Below are positions 5,400 to 42,600 of a stretch of 64,000 bases of DNA, one piece after another. Under the pieces are notes generated by a model. It was not told where the DNA came from. It was given only the letters and a program-made list of their open reading frames with translations, and searched no databases. Both the position numbers and the translations under genes were made by a program. Source of the DNA: Tribonema minus (Eukaryota > Sar > Xanthophyceae > Tribonematales > Tribonemataceae); NCBI GenBank assembly GCA_017506865.1, contig JAFCMP010000544.1:1-64000 (forward strand), in the 5' to 3' direction. The first letter of the stretch is position 1, and the number at the start of each line of letters is the position of its first letter.

Positions 5400-5518
5400 G
5401 TGGTTGTCGTTGCGACACTTTCAGACTGTCATGCGACATGTAGATTCCTTACAGCTAGTTGCCAATCATCTGGGCTTTTTCGCGCCCTGAGCGAGAATTA
5501 ATAAAAAGTACAGGCCTG

Positions 5519-5726
5519 ACACACATGGCAGAATCCAGGGGGGGGGGCACATGGAGGAGGACGTAGGGGAGAATCCCGAGATGCCATTTGGCGGCGGCGG
5601 CGTTTGAGTGGTTGTCGTTGAGACACTTCAAAAGTCACACGTGCACACGACATGCAGATTCCGTACAGCAGCATCAAGTTAGACCATCATCTGGGCTTTT
5701 TCGCGCCCTGAGCGAGAATTAATAAA
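5519..5726 (+). mobile_element. 5'-truncated copy of the same LINE, tandem with the first
   Basis: This ~208-base segment repeats element positions ~5309-5505 (last codons plus 3' UTR), ending again in AATAAAAAGTAC. It is flanked by the direct repeat AAGTACAGGCCTG at 5506-5518 and 5727-5739, the target-site duplication of a separate insertion into the junction at the end of the first element. Differences from the first copy (G-run length, a changed stretch of UTR near 5630-5690) show it is not a simple assembly duplication. Confidence 0.9.
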
Positions 5727-5739
5727 AAGTACAGGCCTG

Positions 5740-6730
5740 TAAGTAGGATTACGTAGGCATGGCAAGCAGTTTCTTCGTACACGAGTCAGGATTGCTTACA
5801 TGCAAAGCATGCCCAGCCAATAAACAGACAGACAGAAGAGCAACAAGGTGCTGTATTATACTGTAGTCAAGATATTGGCATTTTGTATGGAGAGGGGAGG
5901 GGGGGGGGGGGGGGGGTTGGGTATACCCTCAGGCTAACCCTAACCCCTGCCGCCCCGGGGCCCTAGGATCCAACCCCCGGGCGTGAGCCCGGTCGCCGAC
6001 TCCAAGCAGAACCCCCCCCTTCCCCGCTCCTCCCCCCGCACCTACTCTTGACGAAAACAGAGGCGTGGGTGGGTGGGTGTTTTCTCGTTCCGTGTTAGCT
6101 GGCTGTACTTCGGTGCCCTGCTTGACAATGCACACAGTGATCAAACGCAGGGCCACCAATATTGTGTGACCGCAGTGACATCACTGCAGTTCAGCCGAAA
6201 CCGATATTTTTATGCAATCGCTTATGGCTCCCAAAAAACGGCCTGCCTCTCCGTGAACTCCGATGCACTCCCGCTTTCTTTTTACGAACATCAAAGTTAC
6301 AGTTTAACCAACAAGTGGATCAGGTTGCTAAAAGAAACCGGCAGGCTGGCGCCCGCTCCTGCGGCTTGCCGTTTCAAGCAGCCACTGCCGCCTGAAATTG
6401 CAGCGTGCCAGCGCTTTGCGTGTCTGAGCCGCCACTATTGATCATTGGAGCTGACTCATCGTCGGACACTTAAGGAGCTCAGTCGCCGCGGGATCTACAG
6501 CATCAGCCTCTGTGTCAGCCATCTCAGGGCAGTGTAGTGATTCACTGGCTTTGTACGCAATCAAATACACACATACAACCCTGAAAAGCAGTGGTTCCCC
6601 CCGCCCCTCACGGATCAACTCAACTTAGCTAAGCTCGACGGAGCAAAGAGACGACACGGATCAGATCAAACACCGTGTATGACGACGGTTCGGACGGTTC
6701 GGTTCAGATCGGAACACGGACAACGGATCA
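5740..6730. other. Non-coding stretch with G run and telomere-like motif
   Basis: No supported gene. It holds a poly-G run (~5891-5918), a short AACCCTAACCC motif (~5935-5948) next to it, and weak unrelated ORFs only. Confidence 0.5.
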
Positions 6731-6732
6731 GT

Positions 6733-9700
6733 TCAGTTCGATTCTGATTCTGAACCGTGAACCGTGAACCGTTCTTGATCCGTCCTGGACGTGAACCGTG
6801 CCTTCCCTGAAAACTTTGTCTGCATTTCCTGCTCTACCCATGGTGATCTGAGTGCTGTAGTGCAGCGCTCATGGTATGAGCTGGGCACCATTACTGCAAT
6901 TCGGTGGCTGGGTGCCGCGAAGTCCGCAATGCTGCTCCGGCCCAGCATTCACTGCAAACCTGTGATGTCCAGATCGTCAATGATACCCAATTTTTGTTGT
7001 TTCAGGTAATTAACACTCTGGGCATCTTGGGCTGGCTTTGTCAGCACTTCCCGAATGGTGCCATTGAACAGGTACAACCTGTCCAAAACCTCTTGCTTGG
7101 AGCAGTTAGGCTTGCCCTGGTACATCATGCTCCAGCAATCGATGATCTCATCCTGTGACCATACGCCCATAAACCAAAACTTGGAGTCCCCCCGGTTTGA
7201 TGGCCCCTGCCCACAGAAATGAAACAGTGAGGTGAATGATGAGTAGGGTTTGCAATCATAAAGTTGTGAGAGAATGCACCATGATCCGTAAAGGGCGCCG
7301 TAACGTACCATTACCGTAACTCATTTCAGCGTGACTGAATGTAATCGTATCCGCATTGACAATAATAAACCGCAGCGACCTCATTTCGCATGTAGAATTG
7401 GTTACATTTCAATGTCAGCAGCAGCCGCTACAATGCGCGAACTGGGGTTGAGGGCTCCAAAGCTCTCTTCGGCACAAAGTAAAGCTTCCGAACCCAAGGC
7501 CTATATATGCAGCTGCGCACAATGAGAGGCGCTCTACCGAGAGGCAGAAGGAGCAGCAATAATAGCATACCACCACTCTAGCATACCACCACTCAGTCAA
7601 CATTATGTAGACGCATCTCAGTTAGTGATCACTGCAGCAGTTGTGCTGTACCGTTAGGACCGAATCAAGATCGTTGTGTACGAGAACTACGGTGCCGTGT
7701 TTGACGCTTCAGTGCTGTCAGCTAGCAAAATAAAATGACGAATTACGATTACCACAGCCCTTGTGATGAGTCATATCGCCCTCAATACTATTCAGCACAT
7801 GGTGCAAAAAAGGTTGGTGGTGCTACGCGGTCACAGAAGTAGATATGCAGTGAAGCGCGCCTCCAAACTCCTCCATCTCATCCGCCAAGCAGAGCTTCTC
7901 CAGCCACTGTCGAGCCCTCCAACTCCACCATGACTGTTCTTTAGAAGTATGCCTAATGATCTTGCATGTAAAGGCTTCAGCCTGTGCTTGCCTCAGCACA
8001 TTTGTTTATGAGGTGTGCATTTCGTTTGTGCAACGTTCGGCTTTTCCATGAGGATAGCCATGCAGAGCATGCCAAAGAGGTGCGCGCAAACTTTAATGAA
8101 TACAGGTGCACAACTAGTCCAGTGCCAATGTCATGCGCTGAATACATCCCACCCCAAACCTCAGTTGCCAGCTAGCTGCAATAAATATCTAATCTGCGGG
8201 CCGTGCCGCCACATTGTCTATTCTAGTACTTCAAAGTATCGAAATGGCGAGGGAGGCCGGTCGTCTTTGTGTGAACATCAAAAATCTGTGGCGAGCAATG
8301 CTGACTCCGGGCGTGCTGCGCTACCGAGCATCTCCGCTCCGCGCAAATACGCTGTGGTGCGCTCTGCAAGCTCCTATGCTAGCTAGCGACCTGGCAGTGC
8401 TCAGCGCTGCACCTATCTGTTTCTTGTTGGCTGCAGCTTGGTACACCAGTCATGGGCAATGGCCCACTACATGCAGTGTACAGCGCAAGCAGAGGCGCTT
8501 TGTTAAGTGACACGTTCCTTGATGCTGAGGTTGATCTGTGCACCTCAATTTAGCTTGTGTGACTTTGCCCTCACGGGTGTCAGGCGTGCCATGACATGAT
8601 CGCCTGCTTTGGCACCAAGGTTTCATTGAGAGCCTCATTACGCCTTGCAATCTTCTCAGTTCTCAAGTGTGTACTTCACATGTGAGGCCTCGCGTGCGAC
8701 TCTGCCAGCAAGCGAATGCAGCTTGACCTCATATTCTCGGTGAGACTGAAAATGCTCTGTCCCTAGCTTGTTGATGAGAGCATGTGTGCCGATTATGTTA
8801 TGAGAGCATGTGTGGCAATCATTCGTCACAGCCAAATACATAGACGCACTGTCGTGTCCTTGAATTTTGTCCCTGAGCGTGGTGCACAAGTGTGCAAAGC
8901 ATAGACTCCGGGTCTGGGCTTCAGTCTAGCGGCTAACATCAATGAAGGGAGTCAACACTTCCTGGCTAAGCTTGACGCCCCCGAAACATGCATCCTCACT
9001 GGCCCATACCATCTTGTTCGGTGTTGTTCTTGAATTTGACAATATCAACCGATTGTAGATGACAGAGAAAAGGCGGGGGTTGTCAGTGAAGGGTCGGGGT
9101 CTAGGGTTGGCGTTTAGGTTAGGCTTAGGATTCTTGGGGAGGCCAAGTGCTCAAAATGGGTCATAGGACATGCCATACCGTTTGTTGTAGGATCGCTGCC
9201 GTGGGACAGCAGCAGCCGCAGCGGCAGCCGCCGCAGCGCAGTCGTTGTGACTGGAACTGCAGCCTTCACGCCTCAACTTCCTACAGTCACATGTCTTGTA
9301 TGGACCGATGCTTGAATCAGATCAACTGAGCAGGCGAAGGGCCACTGAGACCTCCGGCCAGCAGACTCTAAGGTTAGGTAATCAAAGCGTGACAGGCAGC
9401 TTTGGATCTGCAGTGAAATCTGACAATTGGTCGGCACTGTCCATGATTTCGGACGAGACGGTATACTCCACAGCGGCTCGTGGCACGAGCACCCCGCTCT
9501 TTGATACTGCTCACTGTTCGACAACAACAATACACTGAAAGGACTGGACACTGGTCTGCCAATAAAACGAAACAATGCATCAAACAGTAACTCAAACGAG
9601 CGAGCCAGTTACCATACCTTCCAGATGCTCCGGTCAGAAGAAGTGGCCAAAACGGTCCTCGCCGAGCAATTCAGCGGCAGCTTCCCGTCCATAAGATACC

Positions 9701-12470
9701 TGAGTGACCCCAACACAACAACAGAACAGCAACAGCAACACCAGAGATCATCAGTCAGGAGAAGCATTTCATTGTGCAGATCAAAGTTCTGCTGCCGGCT
9801 CCACCACAGGCTTCTGTTCGCGTTTGTGGCGCGCAATGCCATATTGAATGATGTCCCTCTACAGTATTCTCTTGATTTTATGCTGGTCCGGTCCCCACTT
9901 AAAAAACTGGCACAAAATCCGAAGCGGCATACAATTGAAATGGCACTAATCTGCCCAAATCACCTGCAAACAAGTGCAATCAGTTTTTCAGCACGCCTTG
10001 TGATTTTTTTCTGCTGGTTCCATGCACAACGCCCGGCACAATGATCGGCATAAAATCCGAACGTGCATAACATCCTCTGGCCTGAAATCGCGAGACTACT
10101 GTATTCGCGTTCGCAAGTGCGGGGTTCTGCAATCATTCGCAAACAATGACAGCAACACAGGTTGCTGGCCATAGCAGAAGTGGCACAGCAGGCGGAATGT
10201 TGACTGCTGATCGACAACCTCTCAATCATAGCTCATGACTTGGGCACAGTGTGACAAGGTCAGTTGCTGCAATGCATGGATGGTACGTGATAAATTGCAT
10301 CATTCCACTGTTGTGCAAGGCGGCGCTGCACGGTCGTTTGCAAACATGGGTTGAGGCGGCATGTTCAAGTTGTGTGATGCTCAAAACTCTTGAGGGGTCC
10401 ATATTGAAACTGCTTGAAAGGCATTCATAATGTATTACTGGCCAACACAAATGTTCGACACAACATGCGGAGAGTCAATGACAGCAGCGGTGATTAATAC
10501 AGCACAGCGGCATAGCTCAATGACCAGTACCCTTGCATGACGATTGCTGTAGGCATTACAATACCTGACACAACAGTGTTACGTGCAAGTGCGCAATGAG
10601 TTGGCCATCGCATAGCACCAGGGTGTCCACAATACCAAAAGGTGGACCATGACGGGAAACACTGGTGCCATCGGGATATGTGACACCACAATTTGTTTAA
10701 GTACGTACGCACCAGGTGTTTCGATCGCTGAGGACTGTTGTGAAAGCGCTCAAGGGTCCTTGAGACACACCGTTGGGGGCGAACAGCACAGCGTTGACTT
10801 TGTCCTGCCTGTCATACACCACTGTGCCGCCTTCACGAGCTATGCGCCACATCAGGTAGTAGAGCATGGCGCTCTTCCCGATGCCTGCATATGCAAACAT
10901 TCAAGGCAGCACATTGTTTTTAATATGAACGAGCCAGTGGCTTGCGCACAGCCAAACTACACAACTGCGCTGGTCGCAGATGAGGTTGGGTCGCAAGCGC
11001 CAGCACAACAGAGGATGCAATCGCATTTTACAGTGCAGCATGGCCAAATATTGAGCACACCCGGACTCCCAATGATGATGGAACATCCCCCTCCAACCTT
11101 GACCGTCTCCTGAAACTTGAGTATGCCCTCGAAGATGACGTTGTACGAGTCTTGTACCAACAGCTGCGAGCCTAAGGTAGGATCCCTGGGGATGAAAGGC
11201 CCATCAAGCTCCAATACTGAGCAGCCGCCCTTCTGCTCCAGATGCAGGTCCCGCAATTGTGCCCAGAACATGGCAGCCGTCAGGAGGTCGTTGTCTGCAA
11301 CCAACGCAGAAATTGCAAGAGGCATGACACACGTGCACAACTGGTTGTTTTTGAAGCCACTTTTAATTAAACACGGCAGAGGGCCAGAGGCACGCATGCA
11401 GTGGTCACATTTGCAGTACAGTGGGCAGCCTTTATCTGCCGCATCCGTTGCTCTCAGAGTCAAACTTGGGATGAACTGGTTGTACTACTATTCTGCTGGT
11501 TATATCTCCACCTTGTAAAAAAAGCCTGGCACGGATGTCAACTTTGCAAGAACTGGAAACAAGCCCTGAAACACCTTTGTGCCGGGGCTGACCAGAACTG
11601 AACACGAGCCCTGAAACACCTTGTCTCACCCGCAAGAGGCTTATGTGGCCCACCCACGTCACATTTGTTACTACTGATGCACCATCAGCATACACACCAG
11701 TTTATTCCTGAGAGCTTCTGCCGCAAACATGGCTTTGATTCCGGTGCTGACGTGACCAATTGCACAGCGGACCCTATAGCAATATCAGCAGAACCACCCT
11801 AGAAGCTAAGCTCTGAAGACACAGGCAAGAGTGCCACTCCTCTTGGGCTGCCATAAAAGGGCCTAGGTACAACTTCTGTACACTAAAAAAGAGGAGCAGT
11901 GAGTGCAGCTGTGCGCCAGCAGAAAATCTTGTTTACTTGCACATGAAACTGTTCACGCCCTAACCTCAGCTTGCTCAAGCACAACTTGAAGTACGGGTGT
12001 GAACGTCCAACGTCTTGAACAACTGCGCGTGCAGCAGGTGCACTAACACTTAGGTGCTCAGGAGTCATCAGCAAAACTTTGAAAGTGGCGCATGTGGTAG
12101 TACCTACTGGGTTCAAAGCTCCGAATCAGCACAATGTCACCGGACTCTGGAACAGAAACCAACCTGCACAATCCTTGAAGGCCGACATGATCAGCCAGCA
12201 CGAGATTTTGATACTGCCTGCACTGAAACCAGTCCTGTTCGGATGCAGCTGCCTTGACAACCTTTTGAAAAACCCTGCTAGCAGCCGCAGCCACTCTTGG
12301 CGACTGCTACAAGTGAAGCATATGCATATGCTGTACTTTGGTGCGTCACATGACAAGTCACCTGCGATGTCCTGGCCGGGTGCGATGCCTTGTTCATCCA
12401 GGATTACCACATCAGACACTGCCCGTGATGCACAGGAAAAGCGATCAGAGGACACGGTATGGTGAAGAGA
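6733..12470 (-). CDS. Crinkler/RHS-type P-loop NTPase gene (multi-exon)
   Basis: Exons that can be fixed, 5' to 3': 11294-11061, 10884-10713, 9699-9618, and one from 7206 toward ~6830. They chain in phase. The first ends SCSIIIGSPG-like and the second opens IGKSAMLYYLMWRIA, giving a spliced Walker A (GSPGIGKS). TVVYDRQ, NTW-YLMDGKLP, ARTVLATSSDR and FWFMGVWSQDEI follow, then the helical AAPSHRIAVMVP block. This order is characteristic of the NTPase/nuclease-like module shared by Crinkler and trypanosome RHS proteins (established family knowledge). An exon near 12455-12375 (VVILDEQGIAPGQDIA) resembles the KEGIPPDQ loop of ubiquitin-like folds, as expected for a Crinkler header. Exons between ~12400 and 11300 are unresolved. 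The copy appears to carry about one break and may be decaying. In free-living algae the role of this family is unknown. Confidence 0.72.
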
Positions 12471-13491
12471 GCAAGTATGTCAGTTGCTGAGGGCGTCAAC
12501 GTAGTCAAGCCGCCTGATTTAACAGCAGAACATGTTGTTCAGGCTGAAGGCCAACGAGCACATGAATACACTCAAACTGCGTAGGCAATGATGTGCTGAT
12601 TGGTGTGTTTAGATCTGTTTGCTAGAGCGTGACATTTCTTGCCAGCTGCGTGTCATTACACTTCTTGAACCAGTGTCAACGGCAAAGACACATGCCAATC
12701 TGCGTGCAACGACTTTTGACACTGAAATGTTCTACTCCACTGTCAAGTGTGATGACGATATATGCCCTGATGACAGCATTGTTCTACACATGTACTGTAA
12801 CACTACGGTACAAACGGTGTTCTTAACACGTGCCTACATTGCAAAGACTTTGACGTTTCTAATAATCAAGAACGACTACTGGAGCCGCTTCAGAACAATT
12901 GTGACGAAAGAAATGCACCGACTTGATGCTGAATGAAGGCAAGGATAACTGTTTGTACTGTCATTGTTAAAAAGCCTTCTAGTGCTGAGCATGACGTCGC
13001 CATGTACCGGATCTGACAGCAAAATACGGTCGTCAAGACTTACAATTTTAAATGCAATTAGAAACATACTTTTGAATCACTATTACAGCACATTACCGTA
13101 GGCATAGAGTGTATATGAAAACTGTACGAACCTTGCACCGCCGAGCAGCACGTGCAGTGTGACATATCCATGTCGGTGATGGAAGCTGTGGGAAGCAAGC
13201 ACGCAATGTTCGCATCATACCTAAGCATTGTGAGTAATGCGCTCGCTATGAAGATGCCCGATCCTGATCGCGTCCGACGTATCCTCTGGAAACACACCGT
13301 GCCATAACTGTGTGCTGCGTGTGACGCAGGGTGTGGGAGCGCGTAAAGACTGCTGGCTCGATGAGGTGATGCGTGCTGGCACCGATGGCCATCACGCCAT
13401 CATGCGACAGAGAAATGTATTGAGAGCACACCATGAAGATAAGGAATTCACAAATACACAACAACAACATCAACAACTACAACTCACCGGC

Positions 13492-14098
13492 GTTGCCGAG
13501 CTTCGCCAGGAGCGCCGTCTTGTCGTCTCGGTGCTGCTTCTGTGCCTCTCGCACCTGCTCCAGCTGTCTTAACAGAGAGGTCCAGTACGCCTTAACCTCC
13601 TCCGTGGTTGTGAGCCACTCATACCCAAGACCTTTCAGGGCGGCCAGCCACCACCAAAGGTATCTCTTTTTTCAACGCAGCTTCCTCATTTTCCTTATCT
13701 GCGATCTTCTGGTGTCAGCGCCGCCATCATTAGGGCCGGCTGCCAGCTGAAGAAGATCTGGAAGACAAGTCGCATGAACAGCAGCAGCTGAAGAAGGTCT
13801 GGAAGGCAAGTCGCATGAACAGCACCAGGCTGAGGAATTTGGTACATCAACAAGCAGCAATTTCTTCTATAATACAATGATTTGTTATAGACTGACCTGC
13901 GCGACGCTGTCTGCGGCGGCTCCTGGTCGACACAGGGAGCCGGTCTTGATGACGCTGTGTGCTGATGGACACGGGGAGCAGCAGCCTGTCTTTGAGGCCA
14001 GAAGTGTTCCTGGCGCAAGGCACGAGGCATGAGCCTGGCGCCACAAATCCCAAGGAGCCCCTCGCACAGGCGGCGAGCGCCAACACCAGCAGACGCAT
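13492..14098 (-). CDS. 5' exons with secretory/plastid-type leader, product unknown
   Basis: A start codon at 14098-14096 opens MRLLVLALAACARGSLGFVAPG, a hydrophobic signal sequence followed by Phe-Val-Ala-Pro. The exon ends at a GT donor after 13897 and is followed by Arg/Ser-rich sequence, as in a transit peptide. Further downstream, 13640-13492 reads as a clean helical exon (LTTTEEVKAYWTSLLRQLEQ, then VREAQKQHRDDKTALLAKLG) ending at a donor (gtgagt). A linking exon near 13790-13680 is less sure and contains a 41-base tandem repeat. This may be a small separate gene or the N-terminal part of the NTPase gene downstream on the same strand. The signal-peptide reading is my inference from hydrophobicity; no family is recognised. 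Confidence 0.42.
13745..13826. repeat. 41-bp tandem duplication
   Basis: The unit beginning AGCTGAAGAAG occurs at 13745 and again at 13786 with two or three changes. Confidence 0.75.
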
Positions 14099-14279
14099 GG
14101 GTGGGTTCTTGGACTGTTCTGTATGCATGGGATGATGATGCATGCACAGAGCCTTTTTGTTGGGGAATAAACAACGCACAGTTGAACTTTCCACGTGAAC
14201 TCTTTCTCTCTCTCTCCACAAGACCCTGCCTTACGGTCTGATTCAGCGACGCAGGCGCTGGCGGCTGGGGCTTGGGCGA

Positions 14280-14810
14280 GAGCCGAGGGGACTGGCGAAT
14301 TACCTCTGGGGTCGCCGCCGCCGTACCAGAAGCCGCAGCAGCAATACCAGCAGCGTCGGGAGCAGCATCAGAAGCACCGACAGCACCAACAGCAGCAGCA
14401 GCATCAGCAGCAGCACCACCAGACTTCGGCCTGATGGCGCTCAGGATGCTACATCCACTCCTCGGGAGTGTTGCTCACATGCAGACGACGGAGCTCGTGG
14501 CTGGATTGCGGTTGTGGGATGACGCCAGCTGCAGCAGCGCTGGCAGCTCAGGATGGACCTATGAAGTGGAGCGGGCTTGCAGTGTCGGCAGCGGCATACA
14601 GAGGCACTATCATGTCCAGGATTGCTACATCCACTCCCCGAGAGTGTGCTCAGATGTGGGGGACAGAGCAAGGGGCCGGTGCGCGCTTGTGGGATTGCTG
14701 CTAGCAACAGCAGCGTTCAGGGCAGCGCTAGGGATTGGAGCGCGCTTGTGGACTCTGGCTGCAGCAGCAGCAGCAGCAGCAGCAGCATCAGCAGGACCTG
14801 CATTCGTTCC
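14280..14810. repeat. CAG-rich and degenerate ~175-bp repeats
   Basis: Runs of CAG/GCA (14325-14420 and 14758-14790) surround two degenerate copies of a segment containing CTACATCCACTCC (14450 and 14624). Open frames here are products of the repeats (poly-Ala, poly-Gln) and are not supported as genes. Confidence 0.6.
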
Positions 14811-15509
14811 GCACCTGCAGAGGCACTTTCTTGGGGCCTATGAATTAATGGCGCCTATGATCGCTTCAACTACTCCTTTGGAGTGTTGCCCGTATCAGCA
14901 TGCAAGGGGGGGCTGGAGCGCGTCAAGCCTGCACGCATAAAAGCAACTATATTTCTATCCCAGTGTACCTCTGAGGTGATGGTACTGTGCTGGTAGATCA
15001 CTTTCTGGGCCGAAACACAGCACTCTGATCCATCTCTTTGTTTGAAAAGATCATGGGGTCGCTGCGACCGCTTCAACTGCGAATTGTTTGCAGTGCGTCC
15101 CCAGGAGGCTACACAGAGGGCCCTCAACTAATGCATGCATAGATGGGATACTGACTGTAGTGCACATATAGAAAGTGCTAGCATGTATAGACAAGTACCT
15201 ACTCTGTCTAGACACTGACTAGATGTGCATACACAGACTATACACTAATCTACTAGATGTGTGCATACATAGATTCATGTGTAGAAACACTGTGTCATGT
15301 TCTTGCGCTCAGCGACTACCACAGCGCGTCTCGCCTTGACAGACAACTCCCCCCCACACACCAACATGAAACCTCGACCCTCCACAGCCCACTCACACAC
15401 CCCGCACACTACTAGTAGACGCAATTCCCGGCCCTGACCCTGCCACCGTGACACCCATTCACTGCATGAGTGCACCGCTCCGGTCAAAATTGAAGCTGAA
15501 ATTGCCTTT

Positions 15510-15870
15510 CATGCCCCCAGTGCTCTGGACCTGACGGTTCCAAGTGCCAGCGCTGCGCTGATGGCTGCGCTCAGGCTGATGGCGCGGTCATGCCGACCAC
15601 ACTCACGCCGCCTTCGCCGCAGGCGCGCGAGGTGCCAGGCATGGAGGCCGCGGCGATCCGGCGCTGCGACATGCACGGGCTCGCGCCGGAGGCGGCGCTG
15701 CTGGCGGCGCAGCCGGCAGCGCAATTCGCAGAGGTGCAAAGCGTGGAGGCACGCGTCCGCCAACTCGACGGCGCTGCGCTGGCGCGGTCGGTCACGCGCG
15801 GCAATGCTGGCGCGGTCGGTCGCGCTTATGAATGCGCGCGACGACTGCGTCCTGGCAGCTGAGAGTGCTC
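15510..15870 (+). CDS. Weak GC-rich ORF, hypothetical
   Basis: A local GC-rich island with open frames on both strands. The most protein-like one is 15590-15862 on the plus strand (AREVPGMEAAAIRR, LARSVTRGNAGAVGRA). A 20-base GCGGTCGGTCACGCGCG-like unit is partly repeated near 15785-15825. No family is recognised and the frame may be an accident of composition. Confidence 0.2.
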
Positions 15871-29600: not shown

Positions 29601-29622
29601 TGTCCCCTTCTCATGTTCACAG

Positions 29623-30706
29623 GTTCTCAACACACGTGCGCCATTCTAGATGATGCCACTGCTAAGTGCTGGGGCGATGGACATCATGGTCAGCTGGGGC
29701 AGGGTGACTGGCTTTCCCTCAGCTCGCCCCCAAAGAGCGCCATCAACCTGGGATCGGGCAGAACGGCGAAAGCCATCGCCGCAGGAGTAGGACACACGTG
29801 CGCACTTCTAGACAATGCCACGGTCAAGTGCTGGGGCTTTGGGGAGAATGGTCAGCTGGGGCTGGGTGACGATGTTGCCCTCAACTCACCCTCAATTGAC
29901 GCCATCAACCTGGGACTGGGCAGAACGGCGAAAGCCATAGCCACAGGGTTTTTTCACACGTGCGCCCTCCTAGATGACTCGACGGTCAAGTGCTGGGGCA
30001 ACAACTACAGCGGTCAGCTAGGGCAGGGCACCACTGATGACCTCATCTTGCCCCCCAAGAGCGCCATCAACCTGGGGTCGAGCAGAACGGCGACAGCCAT
30101 TGCCGCAGGTCGTGAACACACGTGCGCCCTTCTAGATAACGCCACAGTCAAGTGCGGGGACTACGGAGCCGATGGTCAGCTGGGGCAAGGCAGCACTGCT
30201 AACCTCCACTCCCCCCCCAAGAGCGTCATAAACCTGGGGTCGGGCAGAACGGCGACAGCCATCGCCACAGGTAATTATCACACGTGCGCCCTCCTTGATA
30301 ATTCAACGGTCAAGTGCTGGGGCTTAGGACAGGGCACCAGCTCGCCCCCATTCAGCGCCATCAACCTGGGGTCGGGTAGGACGGCAAAAGCCATCGCCAC
30401 AGGTGAGCACAATTGTGCCCTTCTTGACAATTCCACGGTCAAGTGCTGGGGCTTCGGAGGCTTTGGTCAGCTGGGGCAGGACAGCACAGCTGACTTCAGC
30501 TCACCCCCAGTCAGCGCCGTGAACCTGGGGTCAGGCAGGAAGGGGAAGCCATTGCCACAGGTTATTATCACTCGTGCGCCATTCTAGATGATTCAACAGC
30601 CAAGTGCTGGGGCAACGGACGCAGTGGTCAGCTGGGGCAGGGCAGCACTGCTAACCTCGGCAATGCACCCAACGAGATGGCCTCGATTGTACCAGTTGTC
30701 CTGTGA
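29623..30706 (+). CDS. RCC1-like repeat protein (seven repeats), partial
   Basis: After a TTCACAG acceptor the frame encodes repeats of about 50 residues with the pattern INLGSGRTAKAIAAG-x4-HTCALLDNxTVKCWG-x5-GQLGQG, six in one frame. A seventh (YYHSCAILDDSTAKCWG, then NLGNAPNEMASIVPVVL and stop at 30704-30706) lies in the next frame after a one-base loss near 30541-30550. RCC1-type repeats form seven-bladed propellers, so seven repeats is the expected number. The conserved Cys pair in each repeat (HTC and KCW) is typical of the extracellular/algal variety, not the nuclear Ran exchange factor. The acceptor at its start shows an upstream exon, not identified. The frame break is either a sequencing error in an AGGAAGGGGAA run or a sign of decay. 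Confidence 0.8.
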
Positions 30707-30964
30707 TGATTGCGTCCGTGAGTCGCCGTTGCACACTTCAGGATTCAAGTTCGCATATGGCCAAGAAACTCTGAGAGGTGTCTCGCACGGCGTGCAGTTT
30801 GAGTCTTTTTTTTCCAACAAGAACCAATTTTCCTTTCACTCTTAACATCCAAGCACTCATATATTCATCGTGCGGTTGTAGTTGCTTTTTGCTGCATTAG
30901 TCCTGTTTGTGACATTTTGCATGCACCGCTGCTGTATTTATGTTGTACTACGCTGATTGTATGC

Positions 30965-31700
30965 GACCAACTCTGCGTATGCTGCTAAATGACGGTTGCC
31001 AAAGTGACAAGTTTGTCACGTCTCATCATAGTGACCATAATCATTATGGTGGGTCTGTTTGGCGGCCTCTTGGTTGCGGCAGCAGCCGCTCTTGGATTCC
31101 GCTGCAGTCTTCGCCGCCCGCGACTGCGCCTGTGTCCCGCCGCAGGTGACATCCACCGCAACCGGTGGCTGACGCGTCACGTCCTCGTAGCTGGTGCCCG
31201 GCAAGGCATCGGCGGGCAGCACGATGTCCATTCTGTAAATTCCCAGGAGATGTCAGGAATGGCTTGTAGTCCTTGTCGACTAGCCCTGTCCTGAGGTACT
31301 GCCGCAGTATGCGCTGCGTGGCCTGCTTGACACTGTTGTGCACGATGGTGTCATTTGCCTTGACGCATGGTGCTTGACAGAGCCGGCGCGCGTTCAAACT
31401 TCCGCCCGGCAAATTCGTGCACAGCCTGCAGTGTGCCCGCCTGCTTGCTCCACAACGATGGAGGTCTTCAACGCAAGCTGCCAAGGCATTCCATCAAACG
31501 TTGCCCTTGTGGGGTATATTGGCTCGTTGAGGGATGCCGTGCTCACAGTGCGCATGTGCCGCTTTGAAAGGAATCAAGCAAATGCATGCGTGCACTGCGT
31601 GCCTCGACCGTCTTTGAGTTCGCAAGCACGGCTGCGACAGCGCTGCCAGCGCACTCTATGTCACGCGCCTCTGGCTGCACTGCAACTGTAGAGCAATGCT
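30965..31700 (-). mobile_element. Old, antisense fragment of the LINE endonuclease region
   Basis: The reverse strand encodes HCRLCTNLPGGSLNARRLC, QAPCVKANDTIVHNSVK and QRILRQYLRTGLVDKDYKPF, a diverged version of element positions ~4408-5150. Both frame and residues are degraded more than in the other copies. It lacks the element's 3' end, so it is an internal remnant of an older insertion or a relative subfamily. Confidence 0.85.
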
Positions 31701-31734
31701 GCAGAGCAACGACATCAAGTACACCATATGTACA

Positions 31735-32179
31735 CCGCCAAGACTACCCACTATTCTGGTCATTATGATCAGAATTGCTACAAACTTGTTACTTTGGCAA
31801 TAGGGTCATTTGGCAGCATCGGGGAGCAGGGGCGGAAGCTGCTGGAGGCTGTGGCGACGGAGTATGCCAGCAGGATGTCAGTGCCCGGAGGAGCGCGCCC
31901 TGAAGCTCTCAAGGGCATCGCCCTGGCGCGCTTACGCTCGGCACTGTCGGCAGCGCTCCACATGGCGTACTCTGGCCGTGTCATGACACACATGGCAGAA
32001 TCCAGGGGGGGGGCACATGGAGGAGGACGTAGGGGAGGACCCCGAGATGCCATTTGGCGGCGGCGGCGTTTGAGTGGTTGTCGTTGCGACACTTTCAGAC
32101 TGTCATACGACATGTAGATTCCTTACAGCTAGATGCCAATCATCTGGGCTTTTTCGCGCCCTGAGCGAGAATTAATAAA
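31735..32179 (+). mobile_element. Young 5'-truncated LINE copy with 14-bp target-site duplication
   Basis: Nearly identical to element positions ~5065-5505, from GCCAAGACTACCCACTATTC to AATTAATAAAA. It is flanked by the direct repeat AAGTACACCATATG at 31717-31730 and 32180-32193. It sits directly beside the older antisense fragment, but its own target-site duplication shows that the two arose separately. Confidence 0.93.
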
Positions 32180-32287
32180 AAGTACACCATATGCAGCATC
32201 TGCAGCTCCAGTCCTGCCAGCTGCTTGCTGCTGCTGCGCCGGCAGTAGCGGTATACACGCCGGCAAAACGTACATACATAGTATGCC

Positions 32288-32660
32288 GGCCATATGGTAT
32301 ATATATGGTGTCACGGTATATCCGTACAACGTATATATTGACGTATATGCAAAAATCGATGTACAGCCGTACATGACGGCGAGCACGAGGGCTGTGCATG
32401 CCCGCATGCATGCCGCTGCAGCTCATGAGCATGGCATCACTCCACAAACTTTTTGAAACGTACATGTGCTGACCATATGGTATACGGCGTCACGGTATAT
32501 CCGTACAACGTACATATTGACGTACTTTTTATTAATTGACGTACCACATAGTATATGCGTATACATCAACGTACAGCCGTACATGGTACATGAGAGCGTA
32601 TACGAGGGCGGTGCAAGCCTGCATACATGCCGCTGCAGCTCATGAGCATGGCATCACTCC
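32288..32660. repeat. Two diverged direct repeats (~170 bp) rich in ATATAC/GTAC palindromes
   Basis: Segments 32288-32450 and 32473-32660 share CATATGGTATA, GTCACGGTATATCCGTACAA, CAGCCGTACATG and GCCGCTGCAGCTCATGAGCA in the same order. Both end GGCATCACTCC(A/G)CAA. The second copy carries the tiny LINE remnant. Confidence 0.8.
32526..32535 (-). mobile_element. Ten-base LINE 3'-end micro-insertion with 9-bp target duplication
   Basis: In the second of the two direct repeats, TTTTTATTAA (reverse of the LINE terminus TTAATAAAAA) lies between two copies of TTGACGTAC (32517-32525 and 32536-32544). The first repeat has only one TTGACGTA at the equivalent place. On the element strand the duplication reads GTACGTCAA, so it again begins with GTAC. 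Confidence 0.6.
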
Positions 32661-32699
32661 GCAAGCATCATGACGAAGTAGCGCAAACACATCAGCATG

Positions 32700-33650
32700 T
32701 CTTAGACATGCACAGATGCATGCTTTGCAGCAGATGATACGGCAGCATTCAATAAGTTACAGCATCATGGGCAGGCATCAGCACACAGCACCATGTGACA
32801 AACTGCAGTCACCCCACAAGCCTTGGGGCTTCAAGTTTAAGTGTCAATTGCCTACACAGCGGGAAAAAAGGGATGCAACTAAATTACACAGCACAGACCC
32901 ACTGGCACTTGATTTTATTTCAGACAACAGCTGAATGTGTTGATTTTTTTAGTGGCATGCAGTCTTAGCCGTGTGGCGCGTCCTCTACTAGCCACGCCCA
33001 CTGACAACAGCTTGCACTGCAGCTGACTCAGAGCGTTGCAACAGGGTGGCGGTCGTGATGAAGCGGAGTAGCAGCAACTCTGACTCACTGGCTTGGTCAA
33101 GCGCACAACAGTCCTGAGGGTTGAATTACGGAAATTCAGAACAGGACCTCTGGCATCAACCCACTTTGGCCAAGTCTGCTTGGAACCTGCCTGCGTTGAT
33201 GCTGCATAAGTTAACAAGAGCGCTCAACTCAACATACCCTGTCACCAACACTTTTATAATCCAAGCATATACTTATATCGCACATTTAGAAAGCACATGC
33301 TGATTCAGGAACGCAAAGTCATTGTGGCAGTACAGGACATGCTGAGTGTCGTATACTTCTACATGCAAAAGATGCGTGAGATTGCATCGACAGCAACTGA
33401 ACATGCACACACAGTCTGCAGTCATATAGACAGTACGCATCTTCAGAGAGAATTATTTGCTGACAGCACATGCCAGCAGACACCAGCAAAGGAACAGATC
33501 ATGAGAAACCACATTTGAAGTTCATTGCAATGCCTGTATTTACGCGCACCAAACCCTACTTGAGCACAACATTGAAGAAGCCCCTACTTATGGGCAGAAC
33601 TAGCGTGCGCGGAGCCCCATGATGGCACAACAGCAGGACCCCCTCTCATC
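32700..33650. other. Intergenic, nothing recognised
   Basis: Short ORFs without domains; downstream flank of the NDUFA13 gene. Confidence 0.5.
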
Positions 33651-33662
33651 TGCCCCTGACTC

Positions 33663-36242
33663 TCATCTGATGAGGTCATTGGGCCAACCCAGGTTGATGG
33701 TTGGTGCCATGTATATGCCGCTCTTGTACACCGTGTCGCCAACCTGAACACATCGACCGCATAGAGAGTGCCGTTAGTGCATGTGCTTGTTCAAGTGCCC
33801 ACAACTCACGCCATGGAATTTTAGTGTCACTGGCGCAAAACATACATAGCATCACTTCGATGACAGCGTGCTATAGAGCCAGCGCCATGCAATTGCACAC
33901 AACGCACGATGAAAGCCCACGCATGCACACAGGGCACAGGCACGTACCTTCCAGTTGGGCACGTGGCCCATGATTTCCTCCTCCTCTGCAACAACAAAGA
34001 CGACAGCACAACAGGCAATGATGGTACGCGTTAACTCTCATCCGCAGTGCGTGCAGGCGATGCACAACAGCAATTGTCGCTTCACATGAAGCAGCGGCTT
34101 GTGCTGCTGAAGCTGCACCCAATACACCACCGGCATCCACATCAGCTACTTTGAAGTATAGCGCAACGCATTCATCCCAGCACAGTACCAGCCAGCAGCT
34201 ACAACATGCAGCTGTTCCACTTTGTCAGCAGTAACAGCGCACAGCTCAGCTGATGTTGAGATTGGATCCTGCTGGGCACTGATGTGGCTGCTCATGTTTG
34301 TCTCCTGGGGCTTCAATGATCACTTCTACCAACACATGCACTAGCCGCGAGTCTTATGCCTGCTTCGGTCCCTTGGTTGTCCATCTCTGGCAAGGTGGTG
34401 GGCTGTACGCTCTCAAGCACGAACGACCCCAAGCATGGCATGCCTCTGCGTTTGTGCGCTTGTTGTGCGTTCATATACACTGTGTACACACATACCTCTC
34501 ATGAACCTGCGCTGCACTCTGATGTGCTGCGCGTCCGCGTCCGCCTGCAGGAAGGCCTGTATGTTCATGCGCGCCTCTCGCTTCTCCCGCGCCATGGCAT
34601 TGCGCCGCTTGTTTCCGTTGATGAGTCCATAGAAGCCGTAACCGACAAACGCCGCGGCACCTGCATTTTTGCAGAAACTGATTCGTCAGACACTGAAAGT
34701 GTTGGTGAGGTGAGTGCACCATGATCACACAGAACCGATTTACTGTACGTGTTCATGCCACTTGTGCGCTTTGCAACCAATTTTGAGTAGCAGCCATTGC
34801 GCTGCAAAGCTGCAATGCACACCATGGCGATCATATAGACACAAGAAGTCCAAATCACGAAACATGCAGATGGCCCCATACGCATTAGAGTGCAAACACA
34901 CAATCATATGGACAAGAATTACAAATCATGAAACATTCAGATGCACAAACATGTGGTTGTAAACAAGAATCACAAATCCTGAAACATTCAGATGGCCCCA
35001 TATGCATTAGTGTGCAAACACGCATTGAACGCATTGTCCTGCGTACCTGCCCAGATAGCCCATCCTGGCGGGCCTCTGGTGGGCGTGTGCCGTGCAATGG
35101 TGATCTGCAAGGAAATGACGCAGAGCATGGGTCAAGATATGAAGGCTTGACGACGACTATGTACGCAGGCCGCACTGCCATTTGAAGTGCCAGTCAAGTG
35201 TGGCGATTGCCGGATTTTGACACAGCATAACCTCTGCTGTTACTGCGACCGAGGTGTGCACCATGGTCACCTTTCGATTGTGTCCATCGCACAAGACAGT
35301 TGAGGTAAAAATGCATCCTGTCCCAACATGTAAAAGTTGCGGTTGGATTGTAAAGGACGGCATGAACTTGCCACTCTGTAGGCGATGAGGTGTGCAGACC
35401 CCGATCGCATAACATTGACAACATATGATGAGAAATGTCTGCTCGACATAAGCTGCACATGAGGCTGCATCACTTGCTTTGTTTCTCTGCGTGCACGATA
35501 TATCATACTTTGGTACATCATGCCGCAGCATCATGCCAAGGTATTATAAAGTGCTCACTAAGGAGTTATCAGCACCGCTGACCAGTGGTCGTCACAGAAT
35601 AAAAGATGCAGACCCATAATGCCGCAACATCATGGCAGCAACATTGCACTGTAGATGCCTTCAAGGAGTGTGTGAAAGACACAGCACTCATCCACTGAAA
35701 ACGCTGGTAACACTCAAGATGACAAGTTGATATGGTTGCAGTGTGGTTGTCAGTCTTGAAATCAGCAGGTCATATTATATTCATACTTCAAAGATCTCAA
35801 AGAGGCCAGATTTGTCGATGATGGCCACAGCTGTGCTGCCCATGCCAAATTTATTTTCAGTCCGCGTGAGTGCGGCAGGGTGCACTTTCGCAGAGCACAG
35901 GTGACATCCACAGTGGGGGGCATCTGCAAGCCATCATGGGTGATAGTGATGCAGTCTGACATGGCTGGGACCAAGTGGCCTAGCTTGAGCAGGCCGAGTG
36001 GCTCGGCGTGCATGTGGGCAATCTGCAAATCAACTCGCAAGCTCGGTGACACTTGATGTGTGTACGACGAAGCATCGTGCGGTTTCAGTTAGAGTGTAAC
36101 AGCAGAGACACTGTCGCGCTAGCACCGGTCGACGGTAGAGCCTTCATCAACTTGCTGCCGTGGTCATCGCAAGACGCACCTTCGGATAGCCTCCCCTCGG
36201 GGGCATGTCCTGATAAGGAATCTCATTCCTTGGCATCGCCAT
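33663..36242 (-). CDS. NDUFA13: NADH:ubiquinone oxidoreductase subunit NDUFA13 (GRIM-19/B16.6), complete
   Basis: An accessory subunit of mitochondrial complex I in the inner membrane. Five exons join in phase: 36242-36180, 35104-35047, 34660-34496, 33985-33948, 33743-33663, giving 134 residues against ~140-145 usual. Seen motifs: QDMPPRGGYPK (family N-terminal signature), IARHTPTRGPPGWAIWAG, a membrane helix AAAFVGYGFYGLI followed by NGNKRRN, an amphipathic helix (REKREARMNIQAFLQAD), EEEEIMGHVPNWKVGDTVY (family VPGWKVGE-like block) and the end WPNDLIR. The start is the first Met of MAMPRNEIPYQD. Introns are 1,075, 386, 510 and 204 bases, all GT-AG. It is divergent from the Tubby-like gene, with 378 bases between start codons, so they may share a promoter region. 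The last residues differ from the plant/animal ending but the core is unmistakable. Confidence 0.94.
35762..36052 (-). other. Open, exon-like stretch inside NDUFA13 intron 1
   Basis: A 96-codon open frame reads IAHMHAEPLGLLKLGHLVPA, then SDCITITHDG. In another frame the same stretch gives KVHPAALTRTENKFGMGS, then TAVAIIDKSGLFEIFE, which ends at a GT donor. Both look more protein-like than random intron, but no family is recognised. It could be an alternative exon or a remnant of another gene. Confidence 0.25.
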
Positions 36243-36620
36243 GATTGCAGGTGCAGAAAGTACACTCTCTCCACCTCTGGCGCTCCCGCCTCGAGCCGCA
36301 GCGACGCCTCCTTGGTCTGGATGATTGCACTTACAAAGCCTTGACAAGGCGACTCTGGAAACTACATAGTATTAGCAAGTTCTAGAAACTGTTTATGTAA
36401 CGATTTTTTCTTGCCGCCGCCGCGAAGCTGATTCCAACGCGCGCTACAGTGGCAAACCCAAATATGGCTTCCAGAGAGGCAATACCAATGCCTGCCACAG
36501 GGCCGCCTGCCAACACGCGAGGCTCGTCCAGGTGAGTGGTGTGAGTTGGGGGTTTGCAATTATTGTTCTGTCGGCTGCTGCTCACGATTGTAATCATGCC
36601 TGCCTGCCTGCCTGCTCGCC
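36243..36620. promoter_or_regulatory. Shared 378-bp intergenic region of a divergent gene pair
   Basis: Separates the start codons of NDUFA13 (minus) and the Tubby-like gene (plus), so both 5' UTRs and core promoters must lie here. Just before the Tubby start is a CCTG repeat (CTGCCTGCCTGCCTGCTCG). I see no convincing TATA box or other named site. Confidence 0.5.
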
Positions 36621-39600
36621 ATGGCTCCGCGCAGACCTGCCAAGCTCAGGCCGCCACCCGGCGAGCCTCCCCAGAACGTGTATTACGATTCGCAAGGCCG
36701 TCGGGAACGCAGCTCTGGTGGCGAACGCCGGCGGGAGCACGGCTCGGTGCCCGATGCACTTCAGGAGGAGCTGCTGCGCCGCTATGAGAGCAGCAGTGAT
36801 CGTGGGGCAGTTGAGGCGCACGACCAACACCGACCGCAGTCTAGCCGCACGCATCATAATCCGCAGCGGGGGCATGGTGGCGGCCGCGTCAATGAGCGAA
36901 GCGCAAAGGACGGGGGACAGTTTGCAGAACAAGAGCGTGACTATCGGGAGCAGCGAACCAACAGCGCCGCTGGTAGCATACATGATTACGCACAAAGTCA
37001 TTACCGCAGTCGCTCATCACGCAATGGACACCACAAACATCAGCGCCCTGGGCATGAAGCAGACAAATGCGGGCAGCGTCCCGACACCAGCGATGTCTCA
37101 TCAACTGACGACAGCACCACCAAGAGACATGTCGATAGTCGGTGTGATGATGAGCAGCGTGGCCAATCAGGTGAGTGCGCCTTGATACGTCCAGCACTGA
37201 GCAAGCATGCCAGCAACTGATACCATGTACCGTGTGTCGTCTACCGTACAAGAGTTCAGGTGCTCACAGGCGTCTCCTGTCAATGCCGTTGAATATATCA
37301 CTGGCAGGTGCGGGCCGTGACAGCCAAACGAGCCGGAAGGGCAGCAGACAACGGCAGCATGGGTTTCATGACCAGCACAATAACGTGCACAGCGCAGGCG
37401 GCAGTCATAGGACGTCACGATCGAACAGCTGCTGGGATGAACGACGTGCGTCTCAGCCCCGGAGCCTCTACGGGTCATCTGGCAGTGCAGGCAAAGACCG
37501 CCACCAAGATGGTCACTGTAATAAGCCCACCAGAGCTAGCAGGAGGCACCGCAATCATGATGATGACGAGCAGTTACACTGCCTCAACACACCTCAACAA
37601 GATGCTTCTCACTCTCATTCTGACAGAAGCACAGGTGCTAAGAAGGGCAGCAGCAACCAGCACAATGAGCACAGGCAGAGAAGCCATAGAACAAGGACAG
37701 AGGAGGGAGAAAGAAAGCCGACAACCGTTGCGGATCATGGCGATGAAACTCTGCAACCCAGCAGCTCCTTGCCATCTACACAAAAGCCTGCATTCTCAGC
37801 AGCTGCGGCAGCAGTGGCAAATGATGGCGGCAGTGTATGTGGCGCAGTACACAATCCGGAATCGGATTCACGGAATGGGGAAACAGCCAAGGCGCAGAAG
37901 CCCATACGGGGGGCACGGCCGGGGGAGGCGATACTCACGCGCGCGGAGGTGCTTGACCCCACCGTTATACTGCCCAACGGCATGAGCAATCAGGTCAGGA
38001 CTTCAACACCTATATGTGCATGCTGCATCAGCTCAAAGTGTGGGCTGCTATGGTGTGTTTGATGCCAGGCACACAGTGCGTGTCATCTGAATGCTAGAAG
38101 CCTTGACTGTCTTCCGCAGTACTGCTGAAGCATTGACGGTATATCAGGGTTTCGTTAATTCATGGCAAGCTGGCAGATTATTCCGCGCATTGACAGCGCA
38201 GCGAAGATGGAATGTTAATGCAGGCTCACAACGTAAGGACAGCAGCAAGACCAGTGTGCATCAGCCTTTTCATAAATGCATGCCTAAGATGAACTTGAGC
38301 TGATAAGTGAGAACAGGCTTTGCTGCTTGGAAGCGTGCTGCGGTCAAGACCCGACCATTCACAAATGGCAGAAGGCTGTAATGCAGGAGGAATGACTTCA
38401 GCTGGGCGAGGGTGCCGCTCAAATTTTTGTCTGCTTGGTGATGAGTAAATCATGTGGGCTCTCTTTCACGGTCATACAATGTCAGCACTTGCAGACTCAG
38501 CGACCCTTTTCTGGATCGACTTTGTCAACATCTGCGGCAACGCTGCTGCAGTCATGTCAGTGTAATTAACCCGCCAGCGCCATTTTCTTAGCCTCAGCCA
38601 CGCAGGTGAAATGGCACGCGCATGCGCTGCTACTGTGTGCGTAGTTGACCAATCTTAGATACAGACACCAGTCAGCGACCTGACAGACCCTTGATTGCTT
38701 GCATCTGGCACTGCAGCAATTACGGGCCATCCTGTGCAGGCCTCTCAAGACATCCAGCGGACAGGTGCTGCAGTGCTTCATCGAGCGCAGCAGAGCGAGC
38801 ATGGGCACAACATCCGCATTCATGCTGCCAATTGCCATGCCAACTCTCAGCCTCACTCCTATCTACAGCCTCTACGTCGAGATGCCAGATGGAACAGTCA
38901 GGTACATGGCACGCAAATGCTGAAATTCCGTCTACATGAGCTGCTGATGCCTCAGTCATATGCATGCATACTAGCGATGGGACATCAGCAAGATGGTGAT
39001 TGGGGCAGTGGAGGTGGCGCTTTGGTGTTTGCACTGAAACAGATGCCATCATATCTACTTAGCACGGTGATCTAGTGCCTGGGTGGTCTCAATATGGTCG
39101 TGTTACCTTGATTGCTGTTGACCAATGATGGTAATCATGAGGCTGCAAAAGCAATGCCAGTAGCCATTGGAGGCAGCGAAAGACATACCACAGTACCTGG
39201 AGCTGTGAGATCACAGGTGTGCTGTTCAGTTTTTGAGCTGTGCCAACGCTCCGCATCACCTGAGTTTTCCACACAGGACCACATGTGCGCAGTGATGGGC
39301 AATTGCATAAGTGTACAGAAGACTTTTGTGCGACATGTGCATTGTGCTGACAGCTGCTGGGCAATGTTTCTTTGACCAATGTGGCAAGTTAATGTAGAAT
39401 GCTGACAGCGTGCGTTGTTTGGCTGTGCAGACTTCTCATGGCCGCCAGAAAGGTGCTGAAGAGCAAGACACCCCATTACATCATCAGGTGAGATCGGTGC
39501 AAAGACAATAAACGCAGCCTGGTGTACGCTCCAAAACGGCAGTATCAGTGTGCGATGTTGTCAAGAGGACTCGCAAGGCATGATGGTTGCGTGCTACAAT

Positions 39601-42600
39601 CCCACTACATGACACATATGTCTAGAAGTGAAGGCACCACACACAAGATGCAACCAACGTACGCATTTGCTCTGCTTCGTTGACCACATATGCATACTGA
39701 GAGTATTGTTGAGGTTCATGGAGAGAAACAGACATCGCTCGTTATACCTGCAATGCTACTGTTCAGACGCCTTGGTATGACGGCCCTTGCGATTGACTGT
39801 ACGGTGCTCCAGTACAGTTCTGAGTGTCAGTGGCCTCAACGTGCTTTTGTGCCATTTTCTTGTGCAATGTTCACAGCACTCGGCGGGATGACCTATTCGT
39901 GAGCAGAGACAAGCGCTCGCCAGACACGTACCTGGGCAAATTGCGTGCCGGGGAGGGGGACACTGCAGATTACACGCTATATGATGCTGGCGACAACCCA
40001 CGAACCGCTCTGGGCAGCACGTGGAGCGCTGGTGAAAGATTGAACAATATGAACAACACCGGAGACCTGTGTCGTGATGACGAGCATCGGATGTCACCAG
40101 CAGGCAGCGCTGCGCAAGGTGAGGGCGGATGCAAGTGCAATGCTTTGATGCATGATGTTCGAAAGGCGGCATGTGGGCGGCTGAATGCAGCACCTTTATG
40201 CAGCGCTCAATGACAAGCCAACATCTTCGGCAGTATGCACTCAACAGCAACATGCATATCATGGTCAGTAAAGTGACGCATACGCTACCTCTCAAGTGTT
40301 CAAGACACTCACTCAGGGCCTGTCAATCAGAGTACGTCTGACCGGTACAATCGAGTTTGCTTCACAACAGCGTACTGTATTGGACCTGTAGCGAGGCATC
40401 TCACAGACAGTTGAATGAAATGCCTGTACTTCTTTTGTACTTGAACAATCAGTTGAGTGCAAAACAGCAGGCTATCTGAAGTCTGAAGTCTCTTGGCAAC
40501 AGTACTTTGTGAATACTTGGAAGCATACTGCAAGAGGTGGCGAAGTCATGCAGCGGGCACACAGCTGTAGGCACATCTGCCACGTCTCAGCGTTGACGTA
40601 TTGTTGATTTATACTTTACCTTGTTCAAGGCTTGCATAGACCATGCATGCAGTACATTTGTTTGCAGATGCAAAGATGTGTTTGGCTGATCTGATACTGC
40701 TGAAGTATTGGTAAAACATGCAGCGCGTGATCTATACGTTTCAAATACTTGAGTCACTGCTGCTATGCGCATTATTTGTGTGCTTTCTCACTGTCCTGCC
40801 AATTCTCACTCCCTGCTATCACAGAGAGTTGTGGCATTCACACAGGCTCAGAACATTCCCTGGACAGCAGTAGACATCGCCAAACCAGTGGCGCCTCAAT
40901 CCAAGGCATCCGGCGGGAGCTGTGTGTAGTCCACTACGCGTTTGACAAGCGCGCCCAAATAGCTGGCAAAGCCAAGGCTGATTTCTGCCGGCGCATGGAG
41001 GTGGCTGTGCCACAGGTAACATCATACTAATGTGACAACGCGTCACGTGCGCTTTCTGCGTACTGGTAGGTTGTACAGGGCTCTGGTGCCATGGGTTCTG
41101 ACATTCACCTGCCTCGGGTGATCTGGTGGCGTGCAGCATTTGCAAAGTCCTTGTGCATGTTTGGTGCGTTCTCACTCTGTGAGCATTACTTCTATAACGC
41201 ATGTGGCTCGTGCGATCCTGCATCAATGAGTGACAGACGTGCATCAAGTAGTCAAAAAATGCCCTAAAAAGGCGGCGCACCAATGGGTGACACACTTGGA
41301 GGTCAAGTCAATGGTCGCTGCAGAACGATGCTTTACAGTACACCTTGGTCGGTGATCTTCATTGTAAAAACGTCAATGGCTCATCAGCGAGCTTACATCT
41401 TGAAAGTATACCGTGCTGCCTAACACCAGCCCACGCGCATGGTTCTTACTTCGCAGGTACGCCAACGAGTCATACATCAGCCAACACACCAGCAGAGCTC
41501 TGAAGCGTCAGCAACATCAGGTCAGTGGCGAATGTACAATGCTGAGCTCATGCTGGAGCAAGCACATGAAAATGATAGCCTTCAAGTGTTGCAAACAGTA
41601 TGTTGTCAGGGTTGTTGAGTGCGAGTGGTCTAATTCCACGTATGCAGTTCTCATCGCCTAGTGTGGCTTGTACTTTTATATGGTGCGGTCAAGGTCTGCA
41701 ATGAGTCACTCGCATTCATGACCAGCGGCTTGACGCAATGAAGCTGGTAGCTCACCAGGTAATGCAGCGCAAGCCCGTTGTGAATGGATACAGCTGGTAA
41801 GCTTGCCAGGTAGTGGTACACAAGCCCTTTGGCGGCAGCGTTCTTTGAGTAGTTGTCATTGAGACACTTTCAGACTGCCACACGACTTGTAGATTTCGTA
41901 CAGCACAGCAAGCTTAGACACCATTTATGTGGGCTTTTTAGCGCCCTGAGCGGGAATTTGTAAAAAGTACACGAGCATAATAAAAGTACACAAGCCCAGC
42001 AAGAATGGGGCACCACGCGCAGTGCAATACGCTGACATCGCATACGTATACTGCTTGCCTTTCAGAAGTGGGACAAGGATGGGAGGATGACATGAGCGTA
42101 TGGCGGCCAGTGGAAGTAGCAGACAGCATGGCGGCACAGTTCCGGCATGTGCGGCGCAAGGGCGGACAGAACTTCCTCGTGAGCGACCGCATGTTGGTGC
42201 TGCATCAGCGGGAGAGCAGGTGCGCTATCTAATGATGCATGCTTTGAGCGCATCTTGCACAGTGAGCCTCGGCAGCGACGGCTCGCTACCCATGGCCAGA
42301 ATGCTTGCGCCAAAGCGTTGATTGGAGTGATTGGAGTCTTTTCAACATGATGCAGCTTGTACATACTGTGGTCGCCCCTGTTGATGAATGAGACAACAAT
42401 TGTCAGCAGGCGCTGCTACACCCTAACATGTTTGACGTAATCTGATGATGCTAGTTTCACGTATGTGTGTTGGGTGTGATCACGCAGGTACGACCCATTG
42501 AGCAGCTGCTTGGTGGACTTCAAGGGGAGGGCATCAACGGCATCCGTGCGAAACTTCCAGCTCATCATGAGCACGCCCACACACAACGCCACACGCGCAC

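Follow-up and report, generated by a model that had tools for sequence, protein, structure and literature searches.

R2 elements such as R2Bm and R2Tg combine a reverse transcriptase (RT) with a C-terminal CCHC motif and a restriction-like endonuclease (RLE), and R2-type long interspersed nuclear elements (LINEs) are, according to the accessible parts of the literature, under development as gene-insertion tools. The same combination is found in family A, a ~5.5 kb non-long terminal repeat (non-LTR) retrotransposon of the yellow-green alga Tribonema minus with one open frame, copies of which lie in the stretch of DNA analysed here (the window; 64,000 nucleotides, positions 1 to 64,000 of the forward strand of contig JAFCMP010000544.1, assembly GCA_017506865.1). 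In contrast to R2, family A is not limited to 28S ribosomal DNA (rDNA), having thousands of dispersed tails and a degenerate site of ~7 bases, and the two are only distantly related in sequence (12–16% identity in structural matches). The insertions of family A are not bound to a single gene, nor are they random, and the best overall explanation, which we consider very probable, is that this element with its R2-type endonuclease inserts preferentially at (AA)GTAC(A) targets.

EhLINE1 and EdLINE1 of Entamoeba are related to R4. They encode an RLE and have a short preferred nicking motif, 5'-GTATT-3', rather than a single target gene (available part of PMC3118788), and short interspersed nuclear elements (SINEs) paired with Entamoeba LINEs are described in the accessible part of PMC3747384. 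Family A resembles EhLINE1 in joining an RLE to a short motif preference and apparently in having paired non-autonomous elements, but differs in that its target duplication starts with a palindromic GTAC core. LINEs of the apurinic/apyrimidinic endonuclease (APE) type, such as L1, have a short degenerate site at which the RNA tail can base-pair with the end of the primer, and show 5' truncation and duplications of variable length; family A is set apart from L1 by its other endonuclease, by GTAC in place of a T-rich site and by the absence of poly(A). The first-pass annotation of the window had described a loose specificity, unusual between the R2 and APE types; a short motif is indeed coupled to an R2-type endonuclease here, but the available description of EhLINE1 (PMC3118788) means that this is not unprecedented.

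As laid out in the accessible part of PMC4640811, RLE-encoding LINEs, among which CRE is counted, vary between strict specificity, as in R2, and none, as in many HERO elements. RLE clades whose specificity is weak or directed at microsatellites, HERO included, share with family A that they are not strictly gene-specific, but a GTAC-type motif is not among the specificities described in that part of the source. For the brown alga Ectocarpus, the available part of PMC12477816 counts 4,821 copies in two families of LINE/CRE, and its brown-alga survey gives abundant LINE-dependent non-autonomous families; the likeness to family A is that of high-copy LINEs in a stramenopile alga. Among the papers listed by a literature search, with most subscription journals outside it, there was no account of this Tribonema LINE or of any GTAC-targeting LINE. 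How R2-type specificity widens or narrows bears on gene-insertion tools, and family A offers an R2-type nuclease domain together with a short palindromic core used many times in one genome, with intact copies at hand.

GTAC at the insertion junctions

The whole 158-Mb assembly was surveyed with a 22-base tail motif, allowing up to 3 mismatches, which occurs 3,732 times. The loci compared were the 100 tail matches listed among these 3,732 (all on contigs C1–C7) and 30 of 40 full matches, the window included. They gave 152 distinct tails, identical ones being counted once, with a BLAST match in 149 and the 5' end in hand for 122; the junction counts rest on these 122 copies and the remaining 30 tails were left out. 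GTAC was present within -16 to +6 of the 5' junction in 79 of the 122 copies, compared to 9–18 in five control windows of equal width upstream. Its density reached 7.2% at 5' positions 0–8, compared to 0.3–0.6% beyond 50 bases. Thirteen further tetramers were scanned as well: TACA, itself overlapping with the motif, showed a comparable rise (5.1%), and ATAT reached 1.1% on few counts.

GTAC together with at least 3 further bases common to both flanks was found in 53 of the 122 copies, compared to about 4.8 when the 3' flanks were swapped between copies. As these 53 were selected for GTAC, the weight of the argument is carried by the swapped-flank control and by 37 duplications called from at least 5 matching bases beyond the GTAC position, GTAC itself not being required, of which 32 have it on both sides. 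In the intact full-length copies L139 and L140, GTACATGCACT and AAGTACATGTAG are found at both ends. A direct scan for short inserts (up to ~50 bases, ending in an A-run) with GTAC-site duplications returned 8, compared to 0 on the reversed sequence.

The element proper stops at ...AATTAATAAAAA, directly before the target GTAC. One could alternatively take GTAC for element sequence, with the transcript ending in AATAAAAAGTAC and the 5' GTACs being due to chance or to nested copies. This is supported by the genome-wide finding that GTAC comes next in 1,716 of 1,837 exact GAGCGAGAATTAATAAAAA tails, and by 13 of the 53 well-supported insertions lying in the tail of another copy. We nevertheless regard it as most improbable, given that 39 of the 53 GTAC-selected insertions are not nested in another tail and still have the 5' GTAC, and given the swapped-flank control and the unfiltered set. 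Moreover, it is refuted at two sites with empty paralogues, where a single GTAC is present. The family A copy at 31731–32181 sits in an old LINE coding remnant (30979–31698 on the minus strand of the window, 72% identical to bases 4406–5143 of the first window copy, with homology also running over the insertion point once the flanks are joined), which supplies paralogous empty sites for the 31717 insertion: in related LINE coding sequence (L098, L102) the site is unoccupied and reads as a single CAAGTACACC. Similarly, the site of L028 is unoccupied in the second repeat copy at the same locus, with a single GTAC. The pair L108/L116 adds nothing here, as the stretch is absent from its paralogue. 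As the first-pass annotation had argued, GTAC belongs to the target and not to the element: it stands on both sides of the insertions, is single in the paralogous empty sites and is replaced by GTAG on both sides at locus L018 (1 of the 37 unfiltered duplications).

In 14 of the 53 copies the two flanks have different bases immediately before GTAC, placing the start of the duplication at the G of GTAC; in the others, an A-run leaves the start ambiguous by one or more bases. Counted from this G, the called duplications are 7–13 nt long, the lower limit of 7 being set by the filter. In a logo, the 39 non-nested sites were compared to a background of 2,606 GTAC contexts, element sequence included. 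A proved to be favoured at both positions before GTAC (28/39 and 26/39) and at the one after it (29/39), with p 2e-6 to 7e-6 for these positions, and at the third base upstream G was found in 18 sites versus A in 7. AAGTAC is present in 17 and AAGTACA in 12 of these sites, which agree in nothing beyond the GTAC core and the bases directly next to it. The A enrichment makes the preference a degenerate AAGTACA, a sequence found at 40,159 places in the genome. The duplication start proposed earlier, (AA)GTAC, is sharpened accordingly, with the element's own end now placed before GTAC.

Several observations weigh against a GTAC-targeting R2-type endonuclease. The initial claim that all insertions lie at GTAC was too broad, as an exact GTAC is missing around the 5' junction of 43 of the 122 copies; some of these are near-matches, in others no duplication could be detected, and the boundary set by BLAST may be misplaced in some. 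An exact GTAC is likewise absent from the 5' junction in 11 of 36 copies at least 98% identical to the window copy, and GTAC does not come next in 121 of the 1,837 exact tails, a number which point mutation might roughly account for. Four of the 37 unfiltered duplications have TAAC, ATAC, GCAC or AGAC (one each) on the 5' side and GTAC on the 3' side; this could reflect mutation or GTAC supplied by the RNA, and the one with AGAC (L078) has probably arisen by chance matching within an element. The 100% GTAC core of the 39-site logo and the 7-nt length floor are both products of the filter. Finally, the endonuclease model has a mean pLDDT of 74.6, with RMD in the place of the usual RPD motif, and the cut positions, as well as this protein being the cutter, are inferred from sequence.

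The family A protein and the choice of site

The family A frame, a single one of 1,777–1,779 amino acids (aa) in L139 and L140, encodes N-terminal Cys/His motifs, an RT, and a C-terminal CCHC motif with an R2-type RLE. The complete 1,779-aa frame matches RVT_1 (E 2.1e-10), and a profile match to the R2Bm RT (3.6e-5) identifies the RT as of the non-LTR type; two sequences matched at E 0.01 or better, both of them R2Bm entries. The N-terminal Cys/His clusters were spotted by eye only and had no Pfam match. The C-terminal CCHC motif and PD-(D/E)XK-like endonuclease typical of RLE-encoding elements are present, and the copies are, as in the RLE group, 3'-anchored and 5'-truncated with target duplications, many being truncated and some down to 10–50 nt. 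The L139 endonuclease domain, as predicted, fits onto solved structures of R2, at the low identity given above; the corresponding L139 region, and not the window copy, was used to predict the structure for the window frame 3453–5399. Among Pfam matches of the complete frame at E 1 or better there was no APE-type family, though a very divergent APE could escape, and an assignment to Chlamydomonas-type Dualen/RandI elements, which carry both APE and RLE, was dropped for this reason and because the proteins matched by homology bear the name of Tribonema minus. Insertion is not confined to the 28S rDNA site of R2 proper, given the dispersed sites of the tail matches. Four relatives are 41–52% identical, and a scan of viral contigs for the 3' ends of relatives found none.

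Taken together, an R2-type cutting enzyme is apparently behind insertion at (AA)GTAC(A). Recognition of approximately AAGTACA would fall to the endonuclease, possibly assisted by the N-terminal motifs. A bottom-strand nick directly outside GTAC would then provide a GTAC-3' primer, from which target-primed reverse transcription of the AATTAATAAAAA tail would begin; the top strand would be cut some bases downstream. With the nick outside GTAC, the 3' junction would read ...AAAAAGTAC whatever the RNA end, and since it reads ...AAAAAGTAC(A), each insertion would rebuild its own target. Reuse of such rebuilt sites would lead to head-to-tail nests, so that GTAC targeting offers an explanation for the nested head-to-tail repeats in Tribonema minus.

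We favour protein recognition, possibly helped by RNA pairing, as the basis of site choice. A different division of labour, which we hold to be rather unlikely, is a near-unspecific endonuclease with the site picked by the RNA 3' end (AAUAAAAAGUAC, from read-through) as it pairs with the GTAC-3' primer. With GTAC next to almost all source copies, the read-through RNA would carry GUAC; the AA preceding GTAC corresponds to the tail's A-run, and the four duplications with GTAC at the 3' side alone point the same way. Pairing as the sole determinant is, however, at odds with the GTAG target of L018, which in this one case kept GTAG and not GTAC at the 3' junction, and the favoured A after GTAC falls outside any constant RNA sequence. 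The preference for G over A at the third upstream base, unlike the A-run, argues weakly in the same direction. The respective parts of protein and RNA in site choice are testable, e.g. with template RNAs ending in AAAAA, AAAAAGUAC or AAAAAGAUC.

The host could also set site choice, insertions gathering in GTAC-rich, open or protein-bound regions. GTAC density is indeed 1.0% at 3' positions 8–25 and 2.0% at 5' positions 8–25, compared to 0.3–0.9% further out, and the 2.9% in the 5' flanks of 20 full-length copies exceeds the one per site expected from targeting, although some of these GTACs are the tails of other copies. We consider host choice improbable: the junction is exact to the single base, as seen in 14 of 53 copies, and this requires the cutting or priming step itself to discriminate at that resolution. 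The 20 flanks (L119–L138) hold 39 GTACs in 1,356 bases, compared to 0.33% in the window, with up to four per flank, reflecting either cluster preference or the remains of earlier insertions.

Nested insertions and families B and C

Two further families, B and C, have their own bodies, and end in a possible short hairpin followed by AATTAATAAAA or ATATAATAAAA and then GTAC. Family C is ~1.07 kb long, has GTAC close to its 5' end and is 100% identical at L010:395–1463 and L084:509–1577, pointing to either a recent non-autonomous element or recent copying; a ~330-base tandem duplication lies inside it. About 6 kb next to one B copy and one C copy was inspected without an RT-like frame being recognised (L141 has no frame of at least 150 aa, and the five frames of L142 were judged by eye only), and the idea that B and C are autonomous LINEs was dropped on these grounds. 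Both families look non-autonomous from their sequences, and probably use the family A machinery in trans. The idea of a tail hairpin was dropped: folding of the A and B tails was no better than that of shuffled sequences (z -0.57 and 0.00), and that of the C tail was modestly better (z -2.11).

At L063, one 11-base site, GTACAAAGTTG, hosts a family A copy, a family C fragment of 32–34 bases and another family A copy. A recognisable A, B or C tail is the insertion point in 13 of the 53 copies, compared to a rough expectation of ~9% (3,732 A tails, 40,159 AAGTACA). No enrichment at other copies' tails is claimed, since the sample was drawn around tails and clusters are over-represented. A tentative, more speculative extension is self-renewing targeting, whereby read-through GUAC would pair with the GTAC-3' primer, each insertion would recreate the site, and at least two apparently non-autonomous families would exploit the tail, having converged on it or kept it.

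Full-length copies start shortly downstream of another copy's tail in L107, L109, L121, L122, L123, L126, L131 and L138, so that head-to-tail arrays result; the upstream tail belongs to family B in L138, and L107 and L109 share a flank on two contigs.

Three Tribonema minus proteins annotated as Lon protease, CCAAT-binding factor and condensin subunit (P0009, P0010 and P0011) align to the LINE frame with 72–99% identity over 7–19% of the query, being either gene models fused to LINE insertions or cases of real exonisation.

Family A copies in the window

The four target duplications reported by the first-pass annotation can all be read directly in the sequence, and are listed with the copies that they flank in the table below. 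The reading frame of copy 1 is broken into several pieces; as the contig begins at window base 1, this copy is without roughly its first 70 bases (estimated from L139). The insertion at 41816–41997 is composite, with a second micro-insertion inside.

Table. Positions of family A copies, frames and target duplications in the window
Feature	Position	Strand	Remarks
Family A copy 1	1..5507	+	compared with intact L139/L140; element proper ends ...GAATTAATAAAAA
Open frame with RT domain (RVT_1)	2185..3882	+	E 3.3e-11
Open frame: Ala-rich linker, CCHC motif, R2-type RLE at C-terminus	3453..5399	+
Target duplication AAGTACAGGCCTG, 5' copy of second insertion	5506..5518	+	equals 3' flank of first insertion
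Second family A copy, 5'-truncated	5519..5728	+	inside GTAC after copy 1 tail
Target duplication AAGTACAGGCCTG, 3' copy	5727..5739	+
Target duplication AAGTACACCATATG, 5' copy	31717..31730	+
5'-truncated family A copy	31731..32181	+	31731–31734 extra bases, homology from 31735
Target duplication AAGTACACCATATG, 3' copy	32180..32193	+
Micro-insertion of 10 element bases, TTAATAAAAA	32522..32544	-	between two GTACGTCAA copies (from 32544, 32525)
Target duplication GTACACAAGCCC, 5' copy	41816..41827	+
Old truncated family A copy	41828..41966	+	77% identical
Inner GTAC and micro-insertion ending AATAAAA	41967..41985	+	within composite insertion
Target duplication GTACACAAGCCC, 3' copy	41986..41997	+

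Apart from the LINE insertions, the window contains a 324-aa open frame at 29613–30587 (plus strand) with repeated HTCALLDNATVKCWGxGxxGQLG units, RCC1-like by eye.
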